NCBI GenBank assembly: GCA_944392735.1
Contig: CALXXR010000070.1
Coordinates: forward strand, 1-37,795
Origin: an uncultured Spirochaetaceae bacterium
GTDB lineage: Bacteria; Spirochaetota; Spirochaetia; Sphaerochaetales; Sphaerochaetaceae
Reading direction: 5' to 3'
DNA: 37,795 nucleotides
Part shown: positions 6,275 to 20,592 of the stretch, piece after piece
How the letters are laid out: each line of letters opens with the position of its first letter
Position numbering within the stretch: position 1 is the first letter of the stretch
The notes under the pieces: model-generated
Seen by the model: the letters and a program-made list of their open reading frames with translations, nothing else
What the model was told of the DNA's origin: nothing
Database searches by the model: none
Program-made: the position numbers and the translations under genes

Positions 6275-7008
6275 GGGTATTCCTGCTCAGGCGCGAAGCC
6301 GGAAACGATGGCATATACCACCTCTCGCAGAAGGAGAGGAACTATCTATGCAATGTCCTGAGGCTATCGATCAACAGCGTATTCACCGCAAAGGACAGCA
6401 AGGACAGATACTACAGGGCATTCCTCTTCGATGAGGATACCCTCACGCTGGAGGAGACGGACAGGCCCGAGGCCACACTGCTCGACGGCCTCTCATCATA
6501 CCAGGGGCCGTTCGTGCCGATTTCTGCATTCGTCTCCGTGCTCAAGGGCAGGAAGAACGAGATGGAGGTACGCGCTCTGACCGAGATAGGCGTAAGGAGG
6601 ATCGTCCTCATGGAGACGGAATTCACCCAGTCCCCCCTATCCGGACACGACAGGGAGAGGCTTTCGTCCATCGTCCGCGAAGCCGTGCAGCAGTCGGGTA
6701 GCTCGGAGCCTGAGATCATAGGCCCTCTTCCCTTCAGCGAGGCCCTCAATCTTGCAGATGGCCGCATGCTCATCCTCCATCAGAGCTCGCTGGAGGCGAC
6801 GAAGCGCCTGTCCCAGGCCCTCTCCGGCTGCACTGCCGCGGATCCGGTCTCGTTCCTCATAGGACCAGAGGGAGGCTTCTCAGAGAAGGAGTGCAGCATG
6901 GCAATCGGAAAAGGCGCTGTGCCGATACTGCTATCAACGAACATCCTCAGAGCCGAGACCGCTGCGATATACACAGCATCCGCGATACAGGCGCTCCTGC
7001 AGAACTGA
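6271..7008 (+). CDS. rsmE: 16S rRNA (uracil1498-N3)-methyltransferase
   Basis: Methylates N3 of U1498 in the 16S rRNA decoding region using S-adenosylmethionine; a SPOUT-class enzyme. The 245-residue protein shows the family marks in order: FLLRREAG and a PUA-like N-terminal domain, KGRKNEMEVRALTEIGV, EAVQQSGSSEPE, FLIGPEGGFSEKE and the knot-forming LRAETAAIYTASAI at the C-terminus. Its start codon overlaps the stop of the S41 protease gene (ATGA) with GGGGGA just before it, so translation is probably coupled. No function links protease and methylase; the pairing looks like economy of space. Confidence 0.94.
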   Translation: MRVFLLRREAGNDGIYHLSQKERNYLCNVLRLSINSVFTAKDSKDRYYRAFLFDEDTLTLEETDRPEATLLDGLSSYQGPFVPISAFVSVLKGRKNEMEVRALTEIGVRRIVLMETEFTQSPLSGHDRERLSSIVREAVQQSGSSEPEIIGPLPFSEALNLADGRMLILHQSSLEATKRLSQALSGCTAADPVSFLIGPEGGFSEKECSMAIGKGAVPILLSTNILRAETAAIYTASAIQALLQN

Positions 7009-7163
7009 GACTCAGAAATGCATAGATGCCGCTGAAGCCGGATTTTCGGGAAACGGCCTCTGGATGATCCTTTCATACACACCTGTCCCAATGATGCGAA
7101 AACCCGAATATTTCGATTGAATATCCGGCACAAGCATCACATCCTTTATCCGGAGGGGTGGAT

Positions 7164-8213
7164 TTGAGGCTTCTGGCATTTTCCCTTGGAAGGGGCATCA
7201 CGGATAGGATCTCACGCATCGCCGGCCATGGCTCGGCGGTCGCATGCCCTACTCTCCAGCGTCTTTCGACAGCTGGGTTCCATGAGGACGACATCGTGAT
7301 CGCAAAGGCATCATCCCTTATCCGCGAAAGCCTCAGGGCATCGATAGGCTCGAGGAGCATCATCGCAATCATGGATGACGACATACCGCTGGAAGGCGTC
7401 GTCCGCATCGGAGAGGACTTCAGCGACTTCGAGCTCCTGGAGGCTGTGGAGACTGCATCGGCTGAGCGTGGCATCCACAGCAGCATACGTGAAGGCATGG
7501 CTGGCAGCTCCGATGTGATGAGGAGGACCCGGAGGCTTATGCAGATGGCATCGATGTCGACGCTGCCGCTGCACATCATCGGCGACACGGGAACGGGCAA
7601 GACGCATGCCGCAAGGCTGATACACGGCTGCGGCGGAAGCGGAAGGAGCATCGTGATCGAAAGCTGCGGCTGCCTCGTCAACGGCATTGCGGACAGCACC
7701 CTCTTCGGGCATACGAAGGGAGCCTTCTCGAGCGCTTCGGACGAAAGGGGCGGGATACTCGCCGCCGCCGATGGATCGACGCTCTTCCTTGATGAGATAG
7801 AGGACCTGCCCATGGATCTGCAGTCTAAGCTCCTGCAGGTGCTGGATACCGGCGAATACAGGAGGCTTGGGTCGGACAGGATCTGCAGGTCGAGGTTCCG
7901 GCTGATCACGGCATCCAACGTTCCGCTGAAGAAGCTGATGGAGGAGCACAGGCTCCGCAAGGACTTCTACTACAGGATATCCGGGATAGAGCTGAGGATG
8001 CCAAGCCTGTCGGAGCATATGGAGGATATACCGGAGCTGCTGGCCGCGTATGAGAGGCGCAGCGGGTATGGACATGTGATCACCGACTGCACGCCGTTCA
8101 TGCATCCATTCCCTGGAAACGTCAGGGAGCTGTTCAAGGCCGCGGAGCTCCATCTCCAGGGGTTCCGCCACTATGCCAGCGAAGCGGACAGCTGTGGATT
8201 CCAGCCGGTCTAA
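7164..8213 (+). CDS. Degenerate NtrC-like AAA+ ATPase with pseudo-receiver, no DNA-binding domain
   Basis: The 349-residue protein is built like a response-regulator enhancer-binding protein but with key parts altered. Residues 1-100 fold by pattern as a receiver: alternating strands and helices ending in EDFSDFELLEAVETA, the usual KPFDLDELLEAVERA segment with Lys replaced by Glu; there is no phospho-acceptor Asp after strand 3 (DIVIAKAS). The AAA+ domain has Walker A GDTGTGKT (140-147), Walker B LFLDEIE, an arginine-rich RLRKDFYYRI and PFPGNVREL. The sigma-54 contact loop GAFTGA reads GAFSSA (186-191). The protein ends shortly after PGNVREL, so the Fis-type helix-turn-helix is missing. A GTG at 7158 is also in frame, but GGAGG (7152-7156) is best spaced for the TTG at 7164. 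Role unknown; partner-dependent regulation is a guess. Confidence 0.8.
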   Translation: MRLLAFSLGRGITDRISRIAGHGSAVACPTLQRLSTAGFHEDDIVIAKASSLIRESLRASIGSRSIIAIMDDDIPLEGVVRIGEDFSDFELLEAVETASAERGIHSSIREGMAGSSDVMRRTRRLMQMASMSTLPLHIIGDTGTGKTHAARLIHGCGGSGRSIVIESCGCLVNGIADSTLFGHTKGAFSSASDERGGILAAADGSTLFLDEIEDLPMDLQSKLLQVLDTGEYRRLGSDRICRSRFRLITASNVPLKKLMEEHRLRKDFYYRISGIELRMPSLSEHMEDIPELLAAYERRSGYGHVITDCTPFMHPFPGNVRELFKAAELHLQGFRHYASEADSCGFQPV

Positions 8214-8556
8214 TCATTGCAGCAGCATGATTTGCACAGCTGTGGATAAACCACTCCCCACTTGTGGAAAACCTGTGGAAAACCATGGGGAAAAAGGCTT
8301 TTCCACACCCCTCCGTGGGTTATCGAAACATCATTGATTCTATATAGATTCTATGTTGATGCACTATTAAGCGTCATTTTTATCTCTTTGTGAAATAAGC
8401 ATTTATGTAAAGTCGAACATTATCCGCGATATTGTTCATCATAGACGGCTCGGGCGCTCTTCACCGACTTTTCCACATGGTTTCCACCGAGATGTGGAAA
8501 ACCTGTGGAAAACCTACATGTAGCGTCGCTTGCAATAAGACTCTATAATCATAGCC
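8214..8556. other. DnaA-box cluster around an AT-rich core (second origin-like region)
   Basis: A gene-free block of 343 bases. Boxes seen: TGTGGATAA, the perfect consensus, at 8241-8249; TGTGGAAAA at 8263, 8274, 8493 and 8504; TTTTCCACA at 8299 and 8469. Weaker TTTCCACC near 8482. The pairs 8263/8274 and 8493/8504 are in tandem at 11-base spacing, one helical turn. Between the two groups, 8331-8440 is clearly AT-rich (for example TATATAGATTCTATG). This layout resembles an origin or a DnaA-titration site. It lies about 10 kb from dnaA and directly upstream of the pfkB start, so it could also place pfkB under DnaA control. Confidence 0.8.
8544..8549 (+). promoter_or_regulatory. -10 element of pfkB
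   Basis: A perfect TATAAT ends seven bases before the pfkB ATG. There is no ribosome site between them, so the transcript would start at or within a base or two of the ATG. No strong -35 hexamer is seen; tandem DnaA boxes end 31 bases upstream. Confidence 0.55.
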
Positions 8557-9561
8557 ATGACTGTCTATTCAATAGGGAATCCACTGATCGATATCCTGTG
8601 CTATGTCGACGATTCGGACCTTGAGTCACTTGGGCTCAGCAAAGGCATCATGCTCCTGGTCGATGAGGAGAAGCGCACGGAGATACTCGAAGCAATCAAG
8701 GATAGGAAGAAGACGGTCTCCTGCGGAGGATCGGCTCCCAATACGATGGTCACGCTGCGCATGCTCGGCGTCGAAACGACGCTTGCAGGGGGAATCGGCA
8801 ATGACGAGTATGGCGGGATATACAGAAGCAGGCTGCGCGAAAGCGGCGTCCATGATGAGACGGAGGTATTCCAGGCCGCTACCGGCACATCCATCATCCT
8901 CCTGACTCCCGATGGGGAGAGGACGATGAACACATACCTGGGAGCGAACAGGCTCTTCGATGCCGATAGGATCAGGGAAGAGAGCGTAAGGAATGCCGGG
9001 CTCTTCTACTTCACGGGATACATGTGGGATACGCCGCAGCAGAAGAGCGCTGTGCGCAAGGCGCTCTCCATCGCAAAGGAATGCGGAATGAAGGTCGCAT
9101 TCGACCTTGCGGATCCCTTTGCAGTCGGTCGCTACCGCTGGGAGTTCCTCAGGCTCATAGAGAACCATTGCGACATAGTATTCGCCAACAGCGAGGAGGC
9201 CAGGTTCCTCTGCAGCCGCTATGATGCATATGAATGCTGCCGATCAATGGGCGAGCTCTGCCCTATAGCCATCGTCAAGGATGGAAGGAAGGGTTCGTAC
9301 ATCTCCGACCATGGAAGGATGCTCGAGATACCGCTCTATGGAACGAAGAAGCCCGTCGATACGACGGGAGCCGGAGACACATACGCCGCTGGCTTCCTCT
9401 ATGGCTATGCCAATGGCTACAGCACTGAGGACTCCGGCAACATAGCATCATACCTTGCGGGTGAGATCATAACCCAGATCGGCGCCCAGTTCTCCCCCCA
9501 GAAGGCTGAGGAAGTAAGGCGCGGAATCACCCTTGGATTCGGGACTCCTTCTCCTTCCTGA
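8557..9561 (+). CDS. PfkB-family carbohydrate/adenosine kinase
   Basis: A ribokinase-fold kinase that phosphorylates a sugar or nucleoside with ATP. The 334-residue protein has GNPLIDIL at the N-terminus, the substrate-side GGSAPNT (57-63), GGIGNDEYG, and the C-terminal anion hole and catalytic base DTTGAGDTYAAGF (268 on, Asp274). The N-terminal signature and the SCGGSAPNT segment are closest to adenosine-kinase-like members, but substrate cannot be fixed from motifs. It has no Shine-Dalgarno site and a TATAAT seven bases before the ATG. Its 3' end overlaps the convergent MATE gene by 35 bases. Confidence 0.88.
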   Translation: MTVYSIGNPLIDILCYVDDSDLESLGLSKGIMLLVDEEKRTEILEAIKDRKKTVSCGGSAPNTMVTLRMLGVETTLAGGIGNDEYGGIYRSRLRESGVHDETEVFQAATGTSIILLTPDGERTMNTYLGANRLFDADRIREESVRNAGLFYFTGYMWDTPQQKSAVRKALSIAKECGMKVAFDLADPFAVGRYRWEFLRLIENHCDIVFANSEEARFLCSRYDAYECCRSMGELCPIAIVKDGRKGSYISDHGRMLEIPLYGTKKPVDTTGAGDTYAAGFLYGYANGYSTEDSGNIASYLAGEIITQIGAQFSPQKAEEVRRGITLGFGTPSPS

Positions 9562-10891
9562 CCATCCCCTTGTATCTCGTAAGGATGAAGAGCGAGAGGA
9601 TCGCCGTCAGCAGCGCCGTTCCCGGCAGGTTGAACCAGATTCCCTCAAGCCCAAGGGGGAGGAGGATTATGATCAGGGCAAGCGGGAATATGAACGCGGC
9701 TGAGACCGAGATCGATGCGGCATACAGCGGCTTGCCGATGGCGGACATGAAGCACTGCGTGCAGATGAAGATCCAACGGACCGCATATGCCGCCGAAGCG
9801 ATTAGAAGCGCACCATGGCCCATGATGCGAAGGCTGCTGCCGCCTCCCTCCACGAACAGATCCACGAAGAACTCCGGCGAAAGGAAGACGAACAGGCCGA
9901 ATGCAATGGACATGACAGCTCCGGCTCCGAAGCAGTAGCGTTCGATGGCTCCTACCCTGTCGAAGCGCCTTGCGCCCCAGTTATAGCCAACCGATGGCTG
10001 AAGCGAATCGCACGTTCCATACATCAGCGGCATGACCAGTCCATCCGCGGACATGATGATGCCGTAGACGCTGACGGCATCCGCTCCTCCAAGGGAGAGC
10101 AGCATGACATTCATGATGATGGATATGATCCTTCCTGAGACATTGGAAAGGAATGTCGGCATGCCGCATGAGACTATCGTCCTTATGAGCGGAAGGCTGA
10201 TCCTGGGCTTCGAGAAGCGGAGATCCATCCCACCCCTTAGGAAGAGGAAGAGCACGGTCAGCGCGGCAAGGCTCATGCCAAGGCATGTGCCCATGGCCGC
10301 GAAGGCGATGCCTTTCTTCAGCACGAGAAGGAACATGAGCTCGAAGAAGACTCCGCCGCAGGCAAGGCCGATGTTCATGAAGAGCGATCCCTTGATCTTG
10401 CCGCATATCCTCAGGTAGTTGTCCATGGCAAAGACAAGCGTCGTGAACGGGGAGAAGCACGCATATGTCCTCAGGTAGGGAACGGCATAGGGAAGAAGCG
10501 TCTCATCTGCGCCCATCATCCTGAAGAGCGTCGGGGCTAAGATGAAGAGAAGCGAGCCCGTGACGACGCCTGAGAGGATTATCAGCACGACAGCCGCTGA
10601 GAAGATGCCGTTAGCATCCTTCTTTTCCCCTCTCCCGAGCTTGATGGCTATGGGGACGGAGGAGCCGACGCCGATCATGTCCGAGACCGCGAAGTTTATG
10701 ATCACGAACGGCATTGCGAGGCTGAGGCCAGCGAATGCATCGGAACCGAGCACCCGTCCTACGATGATGCCCTCGATGAGGTAATACAGAGATGATGCAA
10801 GCATCCCCAGCGCTCCGGGGATTGCGGCTTTGAAGAAGAGATGTCCTGGCTTTGTCCCAAGAAACAGCTTCTCGGCGTTATCCGATGGCAT
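9527..10891 (-). CDS. MATE-family multidrug efflux transporter
   Basis: A 454-residue inner-membrane protein with about twelve hydrophobic helices in two similar halves, as in Na+- or H+-driven MATE exporters. The N-terminal part LFFKAAIPGALGMLASSLYYLIEGIIVGR and YNWGARRFDRV in the second half (the G-N-G-A-x-x motif) are typical of the DinF/NorM superfamily. The start has GGAGG four bases before the ATG. It is divergent from a MerR regulator with 51 bases between the start codons, the usual layout for a drug-sensing regulator and its pump. The substrate is unknown. Confidence 0.9.
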   Translation of the reverse strand: MPSDNAEKLFLGTKPGHLFFKAAIPGALGMLASSLYYLIEGIIVGRVLGSDAFAGLSLAMPFVIINFAVSDMIGVGSSVPIAIKLGRGEKKDANGIFSAAVVLIILSGVVTGSLLFILAPTLFRMMGADETLLPYAVPYLRTYACFSPFTTLVFAMDNYLRICGKIKGSLFMNIGLACGGVFFELMFLLVLKKGIAFAAMGTCLGMSLAALTVLFLFLRGGMDLRFSKPRISLPLIRTIVSCGMPTFLSNVSGRIISIIMNVMLLSLGGADAVSVYGIIMSADGLVMPLMYGTCDSLQPSVGYNWGARRFDRVGAIERYCFGAGAVMSIAFGLFVFLSPEFFVDLFVEGGGSSLRIMGHGALLIASAAYAVRWIFICTQCFMSAIGKPLYAASISVSAAFIFPLALIIILLPLGLEGIWFNLPGTALLTAILSLFILTRYKGMVRKEKESRIQG

Positions 10892-10921
10892 AGTTCCTCC
10901 AATGCACTATGAAAAACCATG

Positions 10922-10939
10922 GAGTCACTCTATAGTCAA
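10922..10939. promoter_or_regulatory. Shared operator/promoter of MATE and merR
   Basis: A perfect palindrome GAGT-C-ACTC (10922-10930) abuts TATAGT (10931-10936), the merR -10, which itself overlaps TTGACT on the minus strand (10939-10934), a -35 for the MATE gene. Regulator binding here could affect both genes. No clear -10 for MATE at normal spacing was found, which fits the long spacers of MerR-controlled promoters. Inferred, not proven. Confidence 0.4.
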
Positions 10940-10942
10940 GAT

Positions 10943-11770
10943 ATGAAAAGGAATTCAGGCAAGCTGTATACGACCGGGGAATTCGCCGATCTCTTCGGGA
11001 TCAGCAAGGATACCCTCTTCTACTACGACAGGATCGGGCTCTTCTCGCCTGCTGCAAGGAGCAGCAATGGGTATCGCTGCTATTCAGTCCACCAGATAGG
11101 GCTGTTCGAGGCTATCCTCTCGCTTCGCAATGTCGGTATCAACATAGAAACCATCAGGGAGTGCTTCAGCACCAAGAGCAATGAGAAGCTGCTTTCGATG
11201 TTCTCGATGGAGAAGGAACGAATCAAGGCGAGGATCACCGAACTGGAGAATACGCTGGATTCGATCTCCTACCTCACCGATCTGATGGATGATGCCATAT
11301 CCAGGAAGGAAGGCGATATGGAGATCAGGCATTCCGATGCCCTCTCCGTAGTCGAGAGCAGGATATGGGAGGCCGATGATGTCGAGGGAAGCGACGACTG
11401 GAACCTCTTCCTTGCTTCCTTTTCGCGCCAGAGCATGCGGTCGGATATGCTCAACCAGGGCACCAGGATACGCTTGGAGGATATCATCAGCGGCCAGTTC
11501 CTGAGGATCAGGAACATCTTCGTCTACAGTCGAAGCGAAGCCAATGCCATCATACCATCAGGACTCTATGCATTCGCATACACATCCAGGCCATATACCG
11601 AATTCGGCGGTATATACTCGGATCTCCTGAAGATGATCGACGATGAGGGATTCGTCCCGGCATCCGATTCATACGAGGAGTACGTGCTTCCCGACATCAC
11701 GTCGAAGAGCATGGAGTCATCGCATACGCGGATCAGGATAGCCGTGGAAAGGAAGAACCCGGATCGCTGA
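10943..11770 (+). CDS. MerR-family transcriptional regulator with effector domain
   Basis: The 275-residue protein starts with the MerR winged-helix domain (LYTTGEFADLFGISKDTLFYYDRIGLF), followed by a long dimerisation coiled coil (about 75-120) and a 140-residue C-terminal part that resembles a ligand-binding module of BmrR-like regulators by position only. Such proteins bind drugs and activate a nearby efflux gene; the divergent MATE pump is the obvious target. The ATG at 10943 is preferred over an in-frame ATG at 10919 because it gives a normal MerR N-terminus. TATAGT ends six bases before it and there is no ribosome site. Confidence 0.88.
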   Translation: MKRNSGKLYTTGEFADLFGISKDTLFYYDRIGLFSPAARSSNGYRCYSVHQIGLFEAILSLRNVGINIETIRECFSTKSNEKLLSMFSMEKERIKARITELENTLDSISYLTDLMDDAISRKEGDMEIRHSDALSVVESRIWEADDVEGSDDWNLFLASFSRQSMRSDMLNQGTRIRLEDIISGQFLRIRNIFVYSRSEANAIIPSGLYAFAYTSRPYTEFGGIYSDLLKMIDDEGFVPASDSYEEYVLPDITSKSMESSHTRIRIAVERKNPDR

Positions 11771-11781
11771 GACCCGGGTTC
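11755..11781. terminator. Bidirectional hairpin between merR and rubrerythrin
   Basis: GAACCCGG (11755-11762) pairs with CCGGGTTC (11774-11781), an eight-base-pair perfect stem with an 11-base loop. It covers the merR stop and lies between two convergent genes. There is no strong T run on either side. Confidence 0.55.
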
Positions 11782-11800
11782 CATCGTCCTCTGCTCTGGA

Positions 11801-12340
11801 TCAGTAGTTCTGTCCGACGAGCTCGAAGTATGCCTGCGGATGGTTGCAGACCGGGCAGACGCCAGGAGCCTTCTTGCCGACTACGATGTGGCCGCAGTTC
11901 CTGCACTTCCAGATCATCTCGCCATCGCGGGAGAATACAAGGCCTTCCTCGACGTTCTTCAGAAGAGCGAGGTACCTCTCCTCATGATGCTTCTCGATGG
12001 CCGCGACGCCTCTGAACTTGGCTGCGATCTCCTTGAAGCCCTCCTCATCAGCTACCTTAGCGAACTCGGCATACATATCCGTCCACTCATAGTTCTCGCC
12101 CTCTGCTGCTGCCTTGAGGTTCTCCGGTGTGGACTTGATGTCGCCACCCTCGAGGTACTTGAACCAGAGCTTTGCATGCTCCTTCTCATTCTCTGCTGTC
12201 TCGAGGAAGATGGCTGCGATCTGCTCATAGCCTTCCTTCTTAGCCTTGGAAGCAAAGTATGTGTACTTGTTCCTTGCCTGGCTCTCGCCGGCAAATGCCG
12301 CCTGAAGATTCTTCTCAGTCCTTGATCCCTTCAGTTCCAT
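11801..12340 (-). CDS. rbr: Rubrerythrin
   Basis: A non-haem diiron peroxidase that reduces hydrogen peroxide in anaerobes, in the cytosol. The 179-residue protein has a ferritin-like four-helix domain (1-140) with the ExxH pairs ENEKEH (Glu52-His55) and AIEKHH (Glu116-His119) and further Glu ligands, and a C-terminal rubredoxin domain with Cys146, Cys149, Cys162 and Cys165 (CRNCG and CPVCN) for one iron. Length is normal. The ATG at 12340 has AAGGAG seven bases upstream; the start lies inside the end of perR (26-base overlap), so the two are co-expressed. Together they form a peroxide-stress operon. Confidence 0.96.
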
Positions 12341-12737
12341 TTTCTTTCTCCTTCTTTCTGCATTCGTTGCAGATGCCTTCGAATATGAGCTTATGTGAAG
12401 TGATGGAAAAACCATCTTCCATAGGTTCGGCCTCGATGTTCAGTCTATTATCATATGGGATTGCGATATCCACAACCCTCCCGCACCGCATGCAGTATCC
12501 GTGGCAATGCTCCTCCGTCCTATGGTCGTAGTGCACCTCGCCATTCGCGAAGGATTCCACCCTGCCTATCCTTCCATCCTCAGAGAGGGCAGCGAGGTTG
12601 CGGTATACCGTAGCCTTGGATATCGTGCTGTGCTTCGATGATATGACGCGATAGATATCATCGGCGCTGGGATGCCCTGGATACGACATGACGGCTTCAT
12701 ATGTAAGCTCCTTCTGCATCGTATTCCTTCTTCCCAT
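12315..12737 (-). CDS. perR: PerR-type peroxide-sensing Fur-family repressor
   Basis: A 140-residue Fur-family metalloregulator. Structural zinc cysteines are Cys82, Cys85, Cys123 and Cys126 (CMRC and CNEC). Aligning by eye to Bacillus PerR, all five regulatory ligands are kept: His22 (GHPSADDIY), Asp71, His77, His79 and Asp90. Asp90 stands where PerR has Asp and Fur has Glu, which supports peroxide sensing by oxidation of the histidines. The N-terminus is about 15 residues shorter than usual, so the first helix is reduced. AAGGAG is five bases before the ATG. It precedes rubrerythrin and is itself preceded by an inverted repeat, so autoregulation is likely. Confidence 0.9.
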
Positions 12738-12748
12738 TCCAGCTCCTT

Positions 12749-12767
12749 ATTGATATCTGTTATCAAT
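12749..12767. promoter_or_regulatory. PerR/Fur-like operator upstream of perR
   Basis: ATTGATA-TCTGT-TATCAAT is a perfect seven-base inverted repeat with a five-base centre. It ends 11 bases before the perR start, downstream of a possible minus-strand promoter with TTGACT at 12796-12791. Binding there would block perR-rbr transcription. The size and AT-rich arms suit a Fur-family dimer. Confidence 0.65.
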
Positions 12768-12832
12768 AGAGTATCAGTATTGAAGAATGTAGTCAACATC
12801 AATATATGAGTATAATATCAATGGAGGAACAC

Positions 12833-13021
12833 ATGGATACTGAGGCAATGACCCTCGTGGTAATCGCAATAGCCATCGCGCTGGCGATATTCCTGATCTG
12901 CAGGGAGCTCGTATGCTGGTATAACAAGACGAATAGGAAGATCGCCCTCCTGGAGAGGCAGAATGCGCTTCTCGAGGAAATACTGGGGCATCTCGAAAGC
13001 ATCGAAAGGAAGAACGGATAA
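12833..13021 (+). CDS. Small membrane protein with one helix and a coiled coil
   Basis: A 62-residue peptide: a hydrophobic helix (about 7-23, TLVVIAIAIALAIFLIC) followed by a basic patch (NKTNRK) and an amphipathic, leucine-heptad segment (about 38-60) that could form a coiled coil. The ATG at 12833 has GGAGG five bases upstream and TATAAT at 12811-12816, so expression is credible. It is divergent from perR and convergent with jag, separated from jag by a hairpin. Function unknown; peroxide-linked expression is possible because its promoter lies next to the PerR-like box. Confidence 0.7.
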   Translation: MDTEAMTLVVIAIAIALAIFLICRELVCWYNKTNRKIALLERQNALLEEILGHLESIERKNG

Positions 13022-13025
13022 GCAA

Positions 13026-13054
13026 GACCCCTCCGGCTATGCACCGAAGGGGTC
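13026..13054. terminator. Hairpin between the small membrane protein gene and jag
   Basis: GACCCCT-C-CGG (13026-13036) pairs with CCG-A-AGGGGTC (13044-13054), leaving one C/A mismatch and a seven-base loop. It lies between convergent genes and could end both transcripts, although a T run is lacking. Confidence 0.5.
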
Positions 13055-13074
13055 GATGATGGATGCAGATGGCA

Positions 13075-13767
13075 TCACTTCTTGGGGAGTATCCTCACCT
13101 GCTTGTACAGGCCATCTCCCTCGCTCTTCGTCTCGACTCCGTCGAAATCATTGAGCGCTGTATGGATAAGGCGCCTCTCGAACGGGTTCATCGGATCGAG
13201 GAGCTTCGAGCGTCCTGTGCGCCTCACCTCCGCGGCGGTCCTGTATGCCGTGCGGATGATCTGCTCCTCGTGCCTCATCCTGTAGTTCTCGCTGTCGATG
13301 ACCACCTTGATATCCGGATCGAGGTTTCCGGCATATACGTTGGCGATGAGCTGGATGGCATCGAGGTTCTTGCCCTTGCGACCGATGATGATCGAGGAAT
13401 CATCGCTCTCGATGTTGATGCCGATCTTCGAATCGCGGCGGAACGAGATCGTGGATCTTCCCGTGTAGCCCATCTTCATGATGAGCGTATCCAAGAACTC
13501 CAATATCTTCCTCTCATTGTCGTTCTGAGGCTCTGGATTGCGGTCCACATTGGACTCCTTCTCCTCATCATCCCTAGATGGCTCAGACTCCTCCTGCGGA
13601 GCCTCCTCTCCATAGTAGACCCTGATGCGGACATTGCCCTTCCTGAAAAGACCCTTCTTCTCCTTCTCGAGGATCTCCACATCGAACTGATCGCGATCGA
13701 GTCCGAGCTCCCTTATCGCCCTGTCTATGGCTTCCTGCTCTGTCCTTCCTTCGAAATCCTGCTGCAT
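13075..13767 (-). CDS. jag: Jag/KhpB RNA-binding protein
   Basis: A 230-residue protein with the Jag N-terminal domain (about 1-50, EGRTEQEAIDRAIRELG and EKKGLFRKGNVRI), an acidic linker, a KH domain with the IIIGRKGKNLDAIQ loop, and a C-terminal R3H domain (ERRLIHTAL). It binds RNA and, in other bacteria, works with YidC or in cell-division control. A GTG at 13773 overlaps the yidC stop, but the ATG at 13767 is preferred because AGGAGG is eight bases upstream of it. Last gene of the rpmH-rnpA-yidC-jag string, ended by a hairpin. Confidence 0.93.
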   Translation of the reverse strand: MQQDFEGRTEQEAIDRAIRELGLDRDQFDVEILEKEKKGLFRKGNVRIRVYYGEEAPQEESEPSRDDEEKESNVDRNPEPQNDNERKILEFLDTLIMKMGYTGRSTISFRRDSKIGINIESDDSSIIIGRKGKNLDAIQLIANVYAGNLDPDIKVVIDSENYRMRHEEQIIRTAYRTAAEVRRTGRSKLLDPMNPFERRLIHTALNDFDGVETKSEGDGLYKQVRILPKK

Positions 13768-13769
13768 GC

Positions 13770-15536
13770 TCACTTCCTCCTGTTCTTCCTCTTCGCTTCC
13801 TTCTTGGCAAGCTTCTCGGCATCGCGCTCAGCAATCTCCTGAGCGTAGGCATTCTTCTTCCTCTTGTTGACGAAGATCTGCTGTCCGATGGAGATCACGT
13901 TGACCGTGGACCAGTAGAGAAGCAGTCCGGATGGCGCATTGTACATGACGAAGAAGAAGATGATCGGCATGCCATAGGTCATGAACTTCATCATTCCAGC
14001 CTGCCCGCTTGCCGCCTGGCTGCCCATCTGGGTGATCTTCATCGAGAAGATCATCGAGAAGCAGTAGAGGATCGGAAGTATGTGTATCTGGCTTCCGAGC
14101 AGAGGAATCGCGAACGGAAGCGTATAGATCGTATCAGGTATCGAGAGATCCGGTATCCATCCAGGGATGAACATCGAACCCCTGAGATCGAAGTTCGTAT
14201 TGAGAAGCCCGTAGAGGGCGATGAAGATCGGGAACTGTATGAGCATCGGAAGACACGATCCCATAGGATTGATCTTCTCCTCCTTATACAGCTTCGCCAT
14301 GGCCGCATTCTGGGCCTCCGGATCATCGGGATACCTCTCCTTGATCTCATTGATCTTAGGCGTGAGCGCTCCCATCTTGGCCGTCGAATCCATGCCCCTC
14401 TTCGCAAGAGGCTGCAGAAGAAGCTTGATGAGTATCGTCAGCAGGATGATGGCCACACCGTAGTTCGGTATCAGTCGATAGAAGAGCTGAAGAAGCCAGT
14501 TGAGGATATTCTCAAGCCATGAAAGCCAGCTTCCATCGAGTATCTCGTTGAGGTCATGGCCTTCGATGCGGAAGATGTTCTCATCGGCATTGCCGTAGAT
14601 GGAGAGATCGTTCTTCACCTTCGGTCCGGCATAGAAGGAATACATATCCTGCACAGAAGAGCTGTCCGAAGCTCTCCTTGTCATATAGATGGTATCCTCC
14701 TGAGATACTCCTTCATCATTATTCGTCTGGATTGCATACGAAGAGGCTATCGTTGTGTCATCTCCAGGAATGAGCATGAACGTGAAGTACTTGCCGGAGA
14801 GAGCCATCCAGTCTACCGTTCTATCCTCATCGGATACGAACATTCCATTGCTGAATCTGGCGTCGCTGCGGCCTTTTCCATCGTATCTGACGGATACGCG
14901 CCTGTAGTCGTAGTTGTTGGAGATCGACTCGAATTCCGGTCCGATCTGCGGTCCTACGGATATCGTATAGGCAGGCGCTGGCGATCCATCGGCCGTCTTC
15001 ACGGATACAGCAAGCTGCATCATGTACTCGCCGTTGTCTGGAATCGCGTACTGCTTCGAGATCGTAAACGGATGTCCGTCTGATGTCGTGAAGTCCCTGC
15101 TGAAGGATACGATGTTCAGTCCGTTCGAATTCACGCTCTCGCTATGGCTGAACACGGCATCAACCGGCGATGAATGATCTCCTCCCGCATAGAGCATGAA
15201 TGCATTCTCATCATCTGCATCCTTGAAGAGCAGCTCAACGGGCTCTCCTTCATCGAGATGCTCGGTGAGCCTTATCGATGAAACGGATGCTCCACTTGGA
15301 TCGAATTCGATCTCATATGCCCCTGCAGCTACCGTGAATGGCGTCGGATCCGGATCCGCACCGACGGCGGAAAATCCTCCGGAAGCCTCGGGCAGGGATG
15401 CATCTATCTCCGCTATGACCTCAGCCTCATTCGTCGGCATCGGCATCTCCGGAGCGAAGAATGCTGTCTGTATACCCATGCCAACCGTTATGACTATAAC
15501 GGAGAGCACGATTGCTATGATGGTATTCCTATCCAT
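13770..15536 (-). CDS. yidC: Membrane protein insertase YidC
   Basis: Inserts and folds inner-membrane proteins, alone or with SecYEG. The 588-residue protein has an N-terminal helix (NTIIAIVLSVIVITVGMGIQ), a large periplasmic P1 domain (about 60-330) and the conserved C-terminal insertase core of about 200 residues with KRGMDSTAKMGALTPKINEI and PMLIQFPIFIALYGLL, ending in a very basic tail (KKEAKRKNRRK) that can contact ribosomes. The P1 domain shows the long form of double-membraned bacteria. AAGGAG lies five bases before the ATG. The 78-base gap to rnpA contains no yidD-like frame; its stop touches jag. Confidence 0.96.
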   Translation of the reverse strand: MDRNTIIAIVLSVIVITVGMGIQTAFFAPEMPMPTNEAEVIAEIDASLPEASGGFSAVGADPDPTPFTVAAGAYEIEFDPSGASVSSIRLTEHLDEGEPVELLFKDADDENAFMLYAGGDHSSPVDAVFSHSESVNSNGLNIVSFSRDFTTSDGHPFTISKQYAIPDNGEYMMQLAVSVKTADGSPAPAYTISVGPQIGPEFESISNNYDYRRVSVRYDGKGRSDARFSNGMFVSDEDRTVDWMALSGKYFTFMLIPGDDTTIASSYAIQTNNDEGVSQEDTIYMTRRASDSSSVQDMYSFYAGPKVKNDLSIYGNADENIFRIEGHDLNEILDGSWLSWLENILNWLLQLFYRLIPNYGVAIILLTILIKLLLQPLAKRGMDSTAKMGALTPKINEIKERYPDDPEAQNAAMAKLYKEEKINPMGSCLPMLIQFPIFIALYGLLNTNFDLRGSMFIPGWIPDLSIPDTIYTLPFAIPLLGSQIHILPILYCFSMIFSMKITQMGSQAASGQAGMMKFMTYGMPIIFFFVMYNAPSGLLLYWSTVNVISIGQQIFVNKRKKNAYAQEIAERDAEKLAKKEAKRKNRRK

Positions 15537-15614
15537 CTCTTCTCCTTGAAAGATAGGAAGATATGTATCCGGAAGCTGGAATAGGAACTCTCTGCTGATG
15601 AGAATGGTGGGAAA

Positions 15615-15977
15615 CTATTTCCGCCTTGACCTGTCCAGAAGCTCTGTGAAGCCGGACTCAAGCAAGGAGAAGGTGGAAACCTTACCAGGATACAGGACAA
15701 GAGCGTAGTCATGCCCTTCATCTTCCACAGGATCCTCCGAGCTGATCCTCATAGCGTAGTTGCGGAAAACCTCCTTTGCCCTCCTTCTCGCCTTGTTGCG
15801 CTGAACGGAATTGCCGAAGTGCTTTGCCGGAATCACTATGATTCGATCGAAGCCCAGATGGTTGCTAAGACTGATTAATCGCATTCCCATGCATGAAACC
15901 GAGCGTCCCTGCCTGAAAATGCGATTGATTTCTTCTTTCTTCCTGATGATCTCTGTCTTAGTAAGGCTTCTTCTCAT
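15615..15977 (-). CDS. rnpA: Ribonuclease P protein component
   Basis: The protein cofactor of RNase P, which binds the precursor tRNA leader during 5' maturation. The 120-residue protein has the N-terminal basic region ([21 protein letters not shown]) and the RNR motif segment [18 protein letters not shown], in place of the usual RNRAKR. Length is normal. The ATG at 15977 lies inside rpmH (20-base overlap), so translation is coupled. The frame is open further upstream, but that part is antiparallel to nothing meaningful and lies in the rpmH coding sequence. Confidence 0.93.
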
Positions 15978-16125
15978 CGCTGGCTGTAAGGCTGTGTCTG
16001 CCCTTGGCTCTGCGGCGAGCGAGCACGAGACGTCCACCCTTGGTGGCCATTCTTGCACGGAAACCGAACTTCCTTGTCCTCTTCATCTTGCTTGGATGAT
16101 AGGTTCTCTTGCCTTTGTTACTCAT
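15958..16125 (-). CDS. rpmH: Ribosomal protein bL34
   Basis: A 55-residue, very basic ribosomal protein of the large subunit. It has the signature [20 protein letters not shown] followed by [20 protein letters not shown] five-residue N-terminal extension (MSNKG) precedes the normal start and the C-terminus is slightly longer than usual. GGAG stands seven bases before the ATG. It overlaps rnpA by 20 bases, the classical pairing. Unlike the common arrangement, rpmH points the same way as dnaA and lies downstream of recF-DUF721, rather than divergent from dnaA. Confidence 0.96.
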
Positions 16126-16197
16126 TGATATACTCCAAATCCATCGCCCTAAAGCGGTTAATATCAGAATTAGGCTGCATTTGCATCCAATTATGTG

Positions 16198-16226
16198 ATT
16201 CTAGCAAACAGCGCATCACAGGTCAA
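16198..16226 (-). promoter_or_regulatory. Promoter of the rpmH-rnpA-yidC-jag operon
   Basis: TTGACC (16226-16221), 17-base spacer, TAGAAT (16203-16198). The transcript would start near 16191, giving an untranslated leader of about 65 bases that contains a normal ribosome site. This is one of the best promoter matches in the window. Confidence 0.7.
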
Positions 16227-16252
16227 CCCATATGATTCCTATACTGAAAGCC

Positions 16253-16573
16253 TCAATTCCAGCGGAGTATCATCAGATCATCGGCCTCTGCAGATGGGAA
16301 TGCCCTGTTGAAATCGGAGATCAGCCTTGCCTTCTCAAGCATTGCCATCGCCCTTGCCGATGACCCATTGGCATATATGCATATGCACCTGCCATCCATC
16401 TTCGCAAACGATGTGCACCTTCGGAGGGCAGGACCCGCTATCATAGGCCATTTCCTGTGGTAGTCGGCCTGCGATGACGACATCCTGCCCACATATTCCC
16501 TGACAAGGTCCTTTATGTCCTTCACCTCAGCCAACTGAAAATCCTCCGTTCTCGACTCTGTATGATATACCAT
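16253..16573 (-). CDS. DUF721 (DciA-like) protein
   Basis: A short protein of 106 residues with the DUF721 pattern: VKDIKDLVREYVGRM, then a W-x-x-I-x-G-P segment (KWPMIAGPALRRCTSF), GRCICIYANGSSARAMAML and a C-terminal helix ending in DLMILRWN. DUF721 includes DciA, the ancestral loader of the replicative helicase DnaB, and the gene sits after recF, its usual place in spirochaetes. The start is uncertain: the ATG at 16573 has GGAAG eight bases upstream and overlaps the end of recF by 47 bases; the frame is open further. A role in helicase loading is inferred from family and neighbours. Confidence 0.8.
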   Translation of the reverse strand: MVYHTESRTEDFQLAEVKDIKDLVREYVGRMSSSQADYHRKWPMIAGPALRRCTSFAKMDGRCICIYANGSSARAMAMLEKARLISDFNRAFPSAEADDLMILRWN

Positions 16574-17609
16574 CGCTGCGGCTTCCGGAGAAATAGCTTT
16601 CATTCGGCAGGAACGTGTAGAATGCCTGCGAGTATCCTGGAAGGGATGAGAGCACATCTCCCCTCTTAGCGCTGTCCAGCTCGAGAAGCACATCATCGAT
16701 CAGAAGCATCGGCTTCCTGCCTGTCTTCTCGGAGAAGTACATCGCTTCGGCTATCCTGAATATGATGGAGGCAAGCCTTATCTGCCCGGTGGAGCCTGTT
16801 GAGGCGAATGGAGAGCCATCGCACATCACGGTGAATCTGTCCCTATGTATGCCGCTGGATGTAGTGGACAATGCGAAATCGCGCTCGATGCTGCCTGAAA
16901 GATAGGATTCGATCTCAGCTGCGTTTTCGAATGCACCCCATGATGGCTGATACTTCACGCTCACTTCCATATCCGTCCCTGATATGCGTCTGAAGAGATC
17001 GGGAAAGATGGAATTGAAGCCATAGACTGCCTCAGCCCTCTCCTTCATTATCTCCAATCCATATGATGCCAGCCTTGAATCATAAAGCTGAGCTATGAGC
17101 CTATCTCCTTTCCTTATGGCAGCATTGCGCTGCATCAGCACGGCCCTGTATGACCTTAGAGAATCAAGGAAGAACGGAGAGTATAGGCTCATCATCTGAT
17201 CGAAGAACCTTCTGCGGTTCTCGGGCTCTCCCTTCACGAAGAGGATGTCGTCATGGGAGAAGACGATGCAAGGGAATCTGTAGAGAAGATCCTTCCTGTC
17301 GCCTATCTCCTTCCCATCGACCGCAATCCTTCTCCTTCCATCGAAGAATGATATGGAGATGCTCTCCCGTACGCCGTTGTCATCCTCCGCTGCTGCAGAT
17401 AGCGAGAAACCTTCGCAGCCGCTCCTTATGGCTTCCTTCAGATGATTGGTCCTGAACGACGATCCATATGAAAGGACGTGCATCGCCTCGAGGAAATTGG
17501 TCTTCCCCTGACCGTTTGTGCCAGTGAGAACAATATCCTCCGCATCTACATCTACATCTGCGGAGGATATATTCCTGAAATCCCTTATCGAGACGGAAAC
17601 GAATCTCAT
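16527..17609 (-). CDS. recF: DNA replication and repair protein RecF
   Basis: An SMC-like ABC ATPase that helps load RecA at gapped DNA through RecOR. The 360-residue protein has the N-terminal RDFRNI and Walker A GTNGQGKTNFLEAMHVLSYG, the family RxxxD region (GEPENRRRFFDQ), a signature-like SSGIHRDRF and STGSTGQIRLASI, and Walker B PMLLIDDVLLELD. Length is normal. The start overlaps the dnaN stop by four bases (ATGA), so the genes form one unit dnaN-recF-DUF721. Confidence 0.95.
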   Translation of the reverse strand: MRFVSVSIRDFRNISSADVDVDAEDIVLTGTNGQGKTNFLEAMHVLSYGSSFRTNHLKEAIRSGCEGFSLSAAAEDDNGVRESISISFFDGRRRIAVDGKEIGDRKDLLYRFPCIVFSHDDILFVKGEPENRRRFFDQMMSLYSPFFLDSLRSYRAVLMQRNAAIRKGDRLIAQLYDSRLASYGLEIMKERAEAVYGFNSIFPDLFRRISGTDMEVSVKYQPSWGAFENAAEIESYLSGSIERDFALSTTSSGIHRDRFTVMCDGSPFASTGSTGQIRLASIIFRIAEAMYFSEKTGRKPMLLIDDVLLELDSAKRGDVLSSLPGYSQAFYTFLPNESYFSGSRSDGISYRVENGGFSVG

Positions 17610-18715
17610 TGAGGCTGCATCGGCATCAGAACGAAGAGATAATCCTTCTCCGGCTCGGATGAGAATATCATGGCCGATCTTGGCTCATTGAACATTATCT
17701 TCATGTATTCGGAATCCATCTTCTTTATAGGAGCAAGGAGAAGCTGGCAGTTGAAGGACATCCTGACATCATCGCCTGAATAGGATGCCGGTATCTCCTG
17801 ATGGCTGTCGCCGAATTCAGTGTTTTCGCTGGAAAGGGCAGCCCTGTTCTCCGAAAGATCTATGTATATCCTCTTCGATTTGCTTTCCACGAGGATGGAT
17901 ATCAGGGAAATGGCCTTCTCTACATCCTCCTTCTTGAGGATGCACACCTTTCCAAGATTCCTTGGAATGACCTTCTCATATGCAGGATAAGGACCCTGGA
18001 TAAGGGTCGAGTATATCGTTCTGTTCCCTATCTCAGCGAAGATATATCCTTCCATGACTCCTATGGAAAGCAGTCCTTCGCCTGTTCCTATGGACTTCAT
18101 GAGGGATAGGAATCTCGTGGGTATGATCGCTGGAATGAAGTCGGGTATGTTCTGCTCGAAGTGGCGGCATACGTACGCAAGCCTCTTTCCATCGGTGGCG
18201 ACGAGCACCAGATCATCGTTCTTCCTCTCCATGTATACTCCTGTGAGGAAGTGCCTTGAGTCCTCATCGGCTACAGCGAACGATGTCTTGTCTATCATAT
18301 CGAAGTAGTCTCGCTGAGTGAGGGAGAAATAGAGGGACTCGTCTATCTCAGCCAGCTCCGGGAACTTCGATGCCTCTATCGTCTTTATGTTGATGATGAA
18401 GGCATTGCTGCCATCTGCAGGCTTTATGGTGAGGTTGCCGTTCTCCTCGGCCACCTCTATATCGATATCAGGGACATTCTTGAGAAGCTGGGAAAGCTTC
18501 TCGCAGTATACGGTGGTGGCTCCTGGAACGAGTACGGAGACATCGATGGTGGATGAGAATCCCATCTTCTGATCGGTTGCCTTTACAGTGAGGGCATCAT
18601 TGCTTGCCTCGAGAAGCACATTGCTTGATATCGAAAGGGAATTCTTTGAGCTCGAGAAGCTGTTTGCCAGCTCTATCTCCGCTCTGAGAAGGCTGGACTG
18701 GCAGATGAATTTCAC
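17606..18715 (-). CDS. dnaN: DNA polymerase III beta subunit (sliding clamp)
   Basis: The ring-shaped processivity clamp of the replicative polymerase. The 369-residue protein has the three-repeat clamp pattern, with FLTGVYMERKNDDLVLVATDGKRLAY in the second repeat and the C-terminal YLFVLMPMQPQ that closes the peptide-binding pocket. The start codon is GTG (18715), with AAGGAG eight bases upstream. It lies directly downstream of the oriC-like gap and overlaps recF by four bases. Confidence 0.97.
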   Translation of the reverse strand: MKFICQSSLLRAEIELANSFSSSKNSLSISSNVLLEASNDALTVKATDQKMGFSSTIDVSVLVPGATTVYCEKLSQLLKNVPDIDIEVAEENGNLTIKPADGSNAFIINIKTIEASKFPELAEIDESLYFSLTQRDYFDMIDKTSFAVADEDSRHFLTGVYMERKNDDLVLVATDGKRLAYVCRHFEQNIPDFIPAIIPTRFLSLMKSIGTGEGLLSIGVMEGYIFAEIGNRTIYSTLIQGPYPAYEKVIPRNLGKVCILKKEDVEKAISLISILVESKSKRIYIDLSENRAALSSENTEFGDSHQEIPASYSGDDVRMSFNCQLLLAPIKKMDSEYMKIMFNEPRSAMIFSSEPEKDYLFVLMPMQPQ

Positions 18716-18999
18716 GGAAGTCTCTCCTTATCTTCTATTAATATACCATAAATAAGGGCCAGTAATAATAGTAAGGGCTGCGAAATTGTGGAAAACCATA
18801 TTCATTTCATTTTGATGCAATGACATAGCTTGTGGATAGATCTGTGGATAGAAAGCCTTTCCATCCACATTAATCCACAGCTTTCGGAGTGGCATGGACC
18901 AAGCTGTGGAAAACTCCGATTCCTTCCACATCCTTTCCAGATGCAATCAACAGGTTTTCCACCGCTTTTCCACAGGGTTTTTCCACAATCGGTGGAAAA
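18716..18999. other. oriC: Likely oriC: DnaA-box-rich gap between dnaA and dnaN
   Basis: Matches to the DnaA box TTATCCACA and relaxed forms, on both strands: TGTGGAAAA at 18787 and 18905; TGTGGATAG at 18831 and 18843; TAATCCACA at 18871; TTTTCCACA at 18966 and 18979; TTTTCCACC at 18955; and partial boxes near 18863 and 18923. The part next to dnaN (18733-18775) is AT-rich (TATTAATATACCATAAATAA) and may be the unwinding element. The position between dnaA and dnaN is a common place for bacterial origins, and most genes on both sides point away from it. Confidence 0.85.
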
Positions 19000-20343
19000 C
19001 TACTGCAGCAGCTCCGCTTTTATGGTCTCAACTGCCTGCTTCACCGACTCATCGGTATCGAGTATGGATTTTATCTTCTCTACCGAGTACATGATGGTCG
19101 TATGGTCCTTTCCGTTCATCATCTTCCCGATCTCGGACAAGGAGTATGATGTGAGCTCCGAGGCAAGGTATATCGATATATGCCTTGCAAGTGTGATGTT
19201 CTTATTACGGCTCTTTCCCCTGATATCGTATTCCTTCAGGTTGAAATAGGACGCCGTGCTGTGGATTATCATATCGACCGTTATATCGGTATTGCGTATT
19301 GCAGGAGCGACGATGAAGTTCTTCAGCTGCTCCTTTGCTATATCAAGCGTCACGGGCTTTCCCACAAGCGTGGCGAAGGAGCTGAGGGTGGTAAGGGCGC
19401 CTTCGAGGTCCCTGACGTTCGTATTGACGTTCTGGCAGATGTACTCAAGCACATTCTGGTCCATCGTATAGCCCTTCTCCTTGCATTTCTGCATGGCGAT
19501 GGCGACCCTTGTCTCGTATGCAGGCGGCTGGAGATCCACGTTTAGGCCTTTCCTGAACCTGGTCTTCAGCCTATCCGTTATATCGGTGAGCTCCGTTATC
19601 GGGCGATCGCACGTGAGGACTATCTGCTTGTGGCTGTCGTATAGCTCATTGAACGTATGGAAGAGCTCCTCCTGTGTTGAATCCTTCTTCTGCAGGAAAT
19701 GGATATCGTCTATGAGGAGCACATCGACGTTCCTGTACTTGGCCTTGAATGAGGATATCCTCTCCTTCGACAGAAGGGAATCTATGAATTCGTTGGTGAA
19801 GCTCTCTGCTGTCGTATAGATGATCTTCATCTTCGGATTATGCTCATCGATGTAGTTTCCGATCGATTCCAGAAGGTGTGTCTTACCAAGTCCTACACCA
19901 CCGTAGATCAGGCATGGATTGAATGATGTTCCTGGATTCTGCGCTATGACCTTGCAGGCATTGAATGCGAAGCTGCTGTTGTCTCCGGAGATGAAGTTGT
20001 CGAATGAATACTGCTTGTTGAGCGTCGTGTTCTTCGACGCGGTTTCCGTCTTCTCCTTCCTTGCGGTCCTTGCGGGTGCCTTCTGCACGGTCTTCTTCGA
20101 TCTGTCGACGATGAAATCGATCGCTACATCCCTTCCGGCTATCTCCGATACCGTGTTCTCTATATCGGCCCTGCAGTTCTTCTCCGTCATCTCCCTATAG
20201 AAGTCCGATGAGAGTGATAGGACGAGCCTTCCATCCTCTTCCTTTTCGAACGATATCCTCTTGATCCACTGCTTCTTCGTCTCTGGAAGCGTATCCTCGA
20301 GCTGGGCTGCCGCTTCCTGCCATACACTAGCGAGATTTTCCAT
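19000..20343 (-). CDS. dnaA: Chromosomal replication initiator DnaA
   Basis: Binds DnaA boxes at oriC and melts the origin. The 447-residue protein has the helicase-interacting N-terminal domain (1-80), a variable linker (about 85-110), the AAA+ domain with Walker A YGGVGLGKTHLLESIG and Walker B VLLIDDIHFLQ, and the C-terminal helix-turn-helix with GKDHTTIMYSVEKI, the DnaA signature. The start ATG has no Shine-Dalgarno site; a perfect TATAAT ends eight bases before it with TTTACC 17 bases further up, so the message is probably leaderless. The gene runs toward oriC, which lies just downstream of its stop. Confidence 0.97.
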   Translation of the reverse strand: MENLASVWQEAAAQLEDTLPETKKQWIKRISFEKEEDGRLVLSLSSDFYREMTEKNCRADIENTVSEIAGRDVAIDFIVDRSKKTVQKAPARTARKEKTETASKNTTLNKQYSFDNFISGDNSSFAFNACKVIAQNPGTSFNPCLIYGGVGLGKTHLLESIGNYIDEHNPKMKIIYTTAESFTNEFIDSLLSKERISSFKAKYRNVDVLLIDDIHFLQKKDSTQEELFHTFNELYDSHKQIVLTCDRPITELTDITDRLKTRFRKGLNVDLQPPAYETRVAIAMQKCKEKGYTMDQNVLEYICQNVNTNVRDLEGALTTLSSFATLVGKPVTLDIAKEQLKNFIVAPAIRNTDITVDMIIHSTASYFNLKEYDIRGKSRNKNITLARHISIYLASELTSYSLSEIGKMMNGKDHTTIMYSVEKIKSILDTDESVKQAVETIKAELLQ

Positions 20344-20351
20344 ATTGCCGG

Positions 20352-20380
20352 ATTATAGCAGACAGCATCGCAGCGGTAAA
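20352..20380 (-). promoter_or_regulatory. dnaA promoter
   Basis: TTTACC (20380-20375), 17-base spacer, TATAAT (20357-20352). The -10 ends eight bases before the dnaA ATG, so the predicted transcript has essentially no leader. Confidence 0.65.
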
Positions 20381-20467
20381 GCAACAATAGTCCAGAAGCG
20401 TGGAAAGACCATATTTATCTTTTTCCATCAGAAGAAGATATGCGGTACTTTGTTTTTCATGGTCCAC

Positions 20468-20496
20468 TTGAATCAAAATGCTCCGGAGTGTATAAT
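20468..20496 (+). promoter_or_regulatory. gyrB promoter
   Basis: TTGAAT (20468-20473), 17-base spacer, TATAAT (20491-20496) with TG directly before it. The leader to the gyrB ATG at 20593 is about 90 bases, in contrast to the very short leaders of many other genes here. The leader contains CCGAATTCGG (20515-20524), a small palindrome. The rest of the dnaA-gyrB gap shows nothing further. Confidence 0.65.
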
Positions 20497-20592
20497 CGAG
20501 AAGAACTGAGAAATCCGAATTCGGCTATGACTATCCCCACCTGCTCGACCAGTCCCAGCCACTTAAGATCGGAATCAGACTGGAAGGATCAT

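Follow-up and report, generated by a model that had tools for sequence, protein, structure and literature searches.

A conserved DnaA-box element of fixed geometry near the replication origin in one family of spirochetes, with a predicted datA-like role

Why should a bacterium carry more exact DnaA boxes in a gap beside a kinase gene (seven) than in the gap between dnaA and dnaN (four), where its replication origin probably lies? The locus that raises this question belongs to an uncultured gut spirochete. How DnaA is controlled from outside oriC has been worked out in detail for E. coli, and only in rough outline for B. subtilis and Streptomyces. Our search of the open literature found nothing on such control in these spirochetes, and no description of the locked geometry and probable NrdR link reported here.

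A dense cluster of DnaA boxes in a gene-free gap

In the window (the whole 37,795-nt stretch of DNA analysed) we identified seven exact TTWTCCACA boxes within 272 bp (8241-8512; starts 8241, 8263, 8274, 8299, 8469, 8493, and 8504; Table 1). They occupy a 343-bp gene-free gap (8214-8556) between a gene for a sigma-54-activator-type AAA+ protein (7158-8213, + strand) and one for a PfkB-family kinase (8557-9561, + strand). An earlier note on this DNA had named the latter pfkB; it encodes a PfkB-family kinase of unassigned substrate, no NCBIfam equivalog model having reached its cut-off, and we use pfkB below as a label. The first box, TGTGGATAA, is the sole match to TTATNCACA in the whole window. 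In each tandem pair (8263/8274 and 8493/8504) the boxes repeat at exactly 11 bp, and the two pairs contain an identical 20-mer, TTTTCCACAGGTTTTCCACA; GC content is 30% at 8330-8440 versus 54% window-wide. The earlier note had described the seven boxes, the single perfect match, the 11-bp spacing of the two pairs, the AT-rich core and the gene-free block, and had placed them about 10 kb from oriC; these features were confirmed, the dnaA-dnaN gap (18716-18999) being about 10 kb away. The AAA+ protein on the left is a sigma-54 activator in which Pfam finds neither a receiver nor a DNA-binding domain; its gene precedes the element in most relatives.

Table 1. Features of the DnaA-box element and the comparison site, in window coordinates
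Feature	Position	Strand	Remark
Whole conserved element	8241-8526	.	Model positions 1-286; aligned in 35 and 27 copies
Outer left DnaA box, TTATCCACA	8241-8249	-	Position kept in closest relatives only
Left tandem pair, TTTTCCACA x2, 11-bp period	8263-8282	-	Conserved across all clades
Inner DnaA box, opposite orientation	8299-8307	+	Conserved in close clade
AT-rich core, 40% GC (30% in 8330-8440), length constrained	8308-8468	.	
Invariant TATAT in AT-rich core	8341-8345		
Inner right DnaA box, opposite orientation	8469-8477	+	Conserved in close clade
Right tandem pair of DnaA boxes	8493-8512	-	230 bp from left pair
NrdR-type box, AACCTACATGTAGCGT	8511-8526	.	2-bp overlap with last DnaA box
dnaA-dnaN gap, probable oriC, 4 exact boxes	18716-18999	.	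Comparison site outside element

Dinucleotide shuffles of the window (300) contained on average 0.25 boxes in total and at most two in any 272-bp cluster, and 2000 shuffles of the gap itself never gave more than one. The metagenome-assembled genome (MAG; 1.83 Mb, 93% complete) holds 19 exact boxes: the seven of the element, the four of the dnaA-dnaN gap, and eight that stand alone. Tandem pairs with up to two mismatches are confined to the two pair sites of the element. A chance origin of the cluster is excluded, and the cluster is unique in the genome.

Conservation across the family

The order of tandem pair, AT-rich core, and tandem pair recurs in the same neighborhood in about 50 related spirochetes, some of which are closed genomes from other genera. 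With its two middle bases left free, the pair 20-mer occurs in 26 of 36 genomes of the window's genus, and 15 of these 26 carry it twice, the copies being 229-231 bp apart; the exact 20-mer was found in only one of 24 sampled genomes from other genera. Inspection of the surroundings of pfkB in some 40 relatives from a species collection showed the cluster between an rsmE/s54 side and a pfkB/rbr/yidC side, with dnaN nearer to it than dnaA. A profile search recovered the element at full length in nearly every one of these relatives, the weakest match being that in Bullifex porci (5.5e-14). Comparison of this gap in related genomes had been proposed in the earlier note, with a lack of box conservation as one part of what would speak against it; the boxes instead proved to be strongly conserved.

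A model of the element, built from 35 copies and from sequence only, matches 134 of the family's 139 genomes, and 21 of its 22 genera, at E values up to 0.01, although some of the weaker matches may be oriC itself (one genome, G034, has such a second match). Gene context was checked for 12 matches in other genera: all 12 are close to pfkB, in most cases flanked by rsmE/s54 on one side and pfkB on the other, and none is oriC; those with dnaA in view are separated from it by 11-29 kb. Seven closed family genomes all have tandem exact pairs (one mismatch allowed) at the element, and three of the seven have them elsewhere as well. Outside the family, model matches are weak (E about 1e-6 to 1e-15) and indistinguishable from matches to oriC. 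A phylum-wide pattern, GTGGAAAANNNATATNTAGCG, is too strict and misses the window's own variant. From the named loci (Bullifex, Ca. Ornithospirochaeta, and Ca. Aphodenecus) we infer that the family of the 139 genomes is Sphaerochaetaceae of GTDB; NCBI assigns Bullifex and Ornithospirochaeta to Spirochaetaceae.

The distance between element and dnaA varies from 7 to 29 kb, and the element is always on the dnaN side. This conserved position near oriC may merely reflect conserved synteny.

Fixed spacing of the two arms

The distance from pair to pair was compared over 46 aligned copies: 24 have 230 bp, 39 fall within 229-233 bp, four have 208 bp, and one has 237 bp. Two values of 220 bp are due to a third tandem box in the right arm of the copies concerned, which shifted the automatic call by one 11-bp unit. 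The 208-bp spacing belongs to one subclade and is 22 bp shorter, a difference of about two helical turns; a spacing of 233 bp, found in one genus, departs from the 230-bp phase by 3 bp. Apart from the invariant TATAT and a few T/A positions the core sequence is poorly conserved, and the distances from the element to its flanking genes vary. Because the spacing is kept while the core diverges and the flanking distances change, length is more tightly constrained than sequence. Opposed boxes (8274/8299 and 8469/8493) are present in the close clade, but throughout the family only the head-to-tail pairs are conserved. A fixed spacing is what two protein arms facing each other across a loop would need.

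The spacing bears on a simpler explanation, that the element is a passive sponge for DnaA in which the number of boxes counts and their geometry does not. Clusters outside oriC in B. subtilis delay initiation mainly in sum, and one of them, put back at various sites, partly relieves the loss (PMC5295017), as such a sponge would. Against this, the spacing here is kept over several genera despite divergence of the core, its one large change is of 22 bp, and the TATAT of the core is invariant. We therefore regard a passive sponge as distinctly unlikely.

DnaA as the likely binder

Where TTTTCAACA boxes replace TTTTCCACA boxes in the dnaA-dnaN gap, the element likewise carries TTTTCAACA. Box type at the element and at oriC is correlated (Spearman 0.67 over 29 loci, a figure that reflects few independent events given shared ancestry). 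Closed genomes of other genera have element pairs of the TTATCCACA type. Since the box type of the element follows that of oriC, DnaA is likely to be the binder rather than another protein.

The element and the replication origin

With its DnaA boxes flanking an AT-rich core, and with more exact boxes than the dnaA-dnaN gap, the element has the look of an origin, and the earlier note had raised the possibility that it is the true one. It had also named a GC skew centered at 18.7-19 kb as another part of what would speak against its proposals. As the window's own genome is in 174 contigs, skew was judged on relatives, at a resolution of a few kilobases. In eight relatives the cumulative GC-skew minimum lies within -0.75 to +1.5 kb of the dnaA 3' end, that is, at dnaA and not at the element. 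A skew-switch fit with gene strand as covariate preferred dnaA/dnaN over the element in seven of eight contigs, and one contig (G016) slightly preferred a switch on the element side; this comparison excludes G061, in which the element is on another contig (sum 35.3 without G061, 44.7 with it). The closed genome G389 has its minimum 6.6 kb from the dnaA start, with the element at 16 kb. These results disfavor the element as the true origin, and we consider it highly improbable that it is an origin, whether true or secondary. A minor contribution to initiation is possible and would be compatible with the resolution of the skew.

A different possibility is a bipartite origin, also named in the earlier note, with the element as its auxiliary half: DnaA on the element would loop over a long range to oriC and directly aid opening or helicase loading there. 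The constant placement on the dnaN side of dnaA, within 7-29 kb, would suit such a partnership, and a bipartite origin is known in B. subtilis (PMC5295017). That origin, however, is split by dnaA alone, whereas here many genes intervene, and the distance is not constant, with 9-14 kb of additional DNA in one relative (L006/G065). We judge such a role to be improbable.

The dnaA-dnaN gap itself contains a trinucleotide array (AGTAATAATAGTAAGGGCTGCG, 18758-18795) beside its first box. It resembles DnaA-trios, and similar (TAG/TAA)n arrays are present at the same place in nearly all dnaA-dnaN gaps of the relatives. The polarity of the array relative to the box seems opposite to what we take to be that of the DnaA-trio/BUS of B. 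subtilis.

The element and its neighboring genes

A promoter of pfkB controlled by DnaA was another reading of the earlier note. The gene on the right (rubrerythrin, MATE, MurA, or an SSB-like gene) is read towards the element in 18 species, 14 of which also have a left-hand gene pointing at it; the identity of the right-hand gene was confirmed as MurA in L030 and L048 and as SSB-like in L022. In the same 18 species pfkB is absent or 0.9-2.5 kb away, and the boxes and their spacing persist, as mostly does the right-end motif. A gene read away from the element is thus not conserved, and a pfkB promoter was rejected as the conserved function.

In a broader form of this idea, DnaA and NrdR would act through the element to control transcription of pfkB or of an unannotated RNA. 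A stretch of 30-60 bp with a TATAAT/TATACT-like hexamer separates the right end from pfkB downstream of it in the window and its close relatives, and NrdR and DnaA are both known to bind promoters of ribonucleotide reductase (RNR) genes (PMC12176259). The 18 species with facing genes weigh against it, as does an Rfam search of 7000-20500, which returned no known RNA family, and we find it very unlikely. In the window's own clade, where the element is just upstream of pfkB, it may have been co-opted and may also serve that gene.

An NrdR-type box at the right end

Directly right of the last DnaA box is a motif, roughly AAMCYAYATNTAGYGT, that is among the most conserved parts of the element in the window's genus and its sister genus. 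As a 16-mer query we used what we take to be the NrdR consensus. In eight congeners, 16-mers within three mismatches of it occur upstream of nrdD/nrdG and of another RNR gene, and at the right-end motif. The nrdD/nrdG sites usually have a second box 31 bp away, and the identity of NrdD was confirmed. A matrix built only from sites at nrd genes finds the right-end motif in 42 of 51 elements of the two genera, always at one offset; at a score of at least 12 it gives 37 matches in element windows and five in 701 kb outside. The motif is a 16-bp palindrome like the nrd-gene sites of the same organisms. Where an extra stretch separates it from the last DnaA box, the stretch is 9-12 bp, about one 11-bp unit. 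The window's own box is the top matrix site of the window (9.4); it agrees with the consensus at 11 of 16 positions and is weaker than those of relatives. The nrdR gene is present in the window's own genome and in 19 of 20 others searched.

The matrix found no NrdR box in dnaA-dnaN gaps or in the 11 elements taken from more distant genera, so the NrdR-type box appears to be a lineage-specific addition. It shares its form, a palindromic AT-rich 16-mer, with the boxes of nrdD/nrdG. Unlike the boxes of RNR operons, which come in pairs 15-16 bp apart (PMC12176259), it is either single or, in nine loci of one subclade, accompanied by a second near-perfect box at a distance of 327-331 bp on the left, and in many cases there is no promoter for NrdR to repress. 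The dATP-loaded form of NrdR binds DNA and introduces a sharp bend at each box (PMC12176259), and it is conceivable, by analogy with IHF at datA, that NrdR serves here as an architectural factor. We keep this as a hypothesis, because the window's copy agrees at only 11 of 16 positions and NrdR normally uses two boxes 15-16 bp apart.

A predicted DnaA-regulatory element

Overall, we favor, with moderate confidence, the reading that the locus is a stand-alone, non-coding, oriC-proximal DnaA-regulatory element of datA-like type, acting through a DNA loop and possibly coupled to NrdR, a function predicted from its conservation and geometry. It is old and family-wide, is probably closest in action to datA or the DnaA-box clusters of B. 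subtilis, and probably tunes the timing of replication start. DnaA oligomers on the two tandem-pair arms would meet by looping of the AT-rich core. The looped element would bind, and possibly inactivate or reactivate, DnaA near the newly copied origin, and in this way set the timing of initiation. Being copied soon after oriC, the element would double in dose just after initiation, which would suit a brake on re-initiation. The NrdR-type box that abuts the right arm in the window's lineage could recruit NrdR as a nucleotide-sensing architectural factor, as IHF acts at E. coli datA; this is the least certain step.

A DnaA titration site was among the suggestions of the earlier note, and a titrating or regulatory role fits best of the four readings offered there. 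As to the manner of action, titration, hydrolysis of DnaA-ATP, and reactivation of DnaA are all compatible with the sequence and inseparable by it. In a more specific version, two DnaA oligomers would be joined over a helically phased 230-bp loop with dATP-loaded NrdR as the bender, so that a dNTP sensor would act directly on DnaA and initiation without working by way of transcription; we offer this speculatively, as an unlikely proposal. A single compact, family-wide element with locked geometry is a clean test object for how looping lets DnaA-box clusters act. Should the NrdR box prove real, it would provide a direct physical link from dNTP level to the timing of initiation.

Comparison with known systems

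The minimal datA of E. coli is 262 bp long, and looping made by IHF joins DnaA bound at its distant boxes (PMC5742627). Like datA, the spirochete element is a DnaA-box cluster of similar size in a non-coding locus outside oriC, and a bent-loop model would fit its fixed spacing. It also differs: datA relies on IHF and is far from oriC in E. coli, whereas the spirochete locus lies within 7-29 kb of dnaA, its two tandem pairs are set a fixed distance apart, and it carries an NrdR-type box rather than a known IHF site; we do not claim homology to datA.

B. subtilis has six DnaA-box clusters outside its origin, and loss of all six leads to early initiation; a cluster outside the origin is also known in Streptomyces coelicolor (PMC5295017, PMC13220808). 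The element resembles these in being a DnaA-box cluster outside the origin. In contrast to the six of B. subtilis, it is a single one, with an internal geometry conserved across genera. DARS1 and DARS2 of E. coli are likewise non-coding DnaA-box elements with conserved internal spacing, and DARS2 needs bending proteins (PMC5742627). The DARS core, however, has three boxes, of which I and II are head-to-head, and the conserved arms of the spirochete element are head-to-tail.

Unusual loci

A few further loci are of note. In L006 (G065:C22) extra genes are present between pfkB and the MATE gene and also between rnpA and recF; the element has been pushed to about 24 kb from dnaA, with its internal spacing unchanged. 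One MAG (isolate E19__bin224; L019 and L023) has two different element copies, with s54 and pfkB on separate contigs, from either a duplication or two strains binned together. A contig labelled Cloacimonadota (L049) has the order lgt-ctp-s54-pfkB-yidC-rnpA as in these spirochetes and is probably misbinned. The closed genome G337 has two more tandem DnaA-box pairs (C1:2222105-2222485), about 5 kb to the gyrA side of dnaA, between gyrA and parA.
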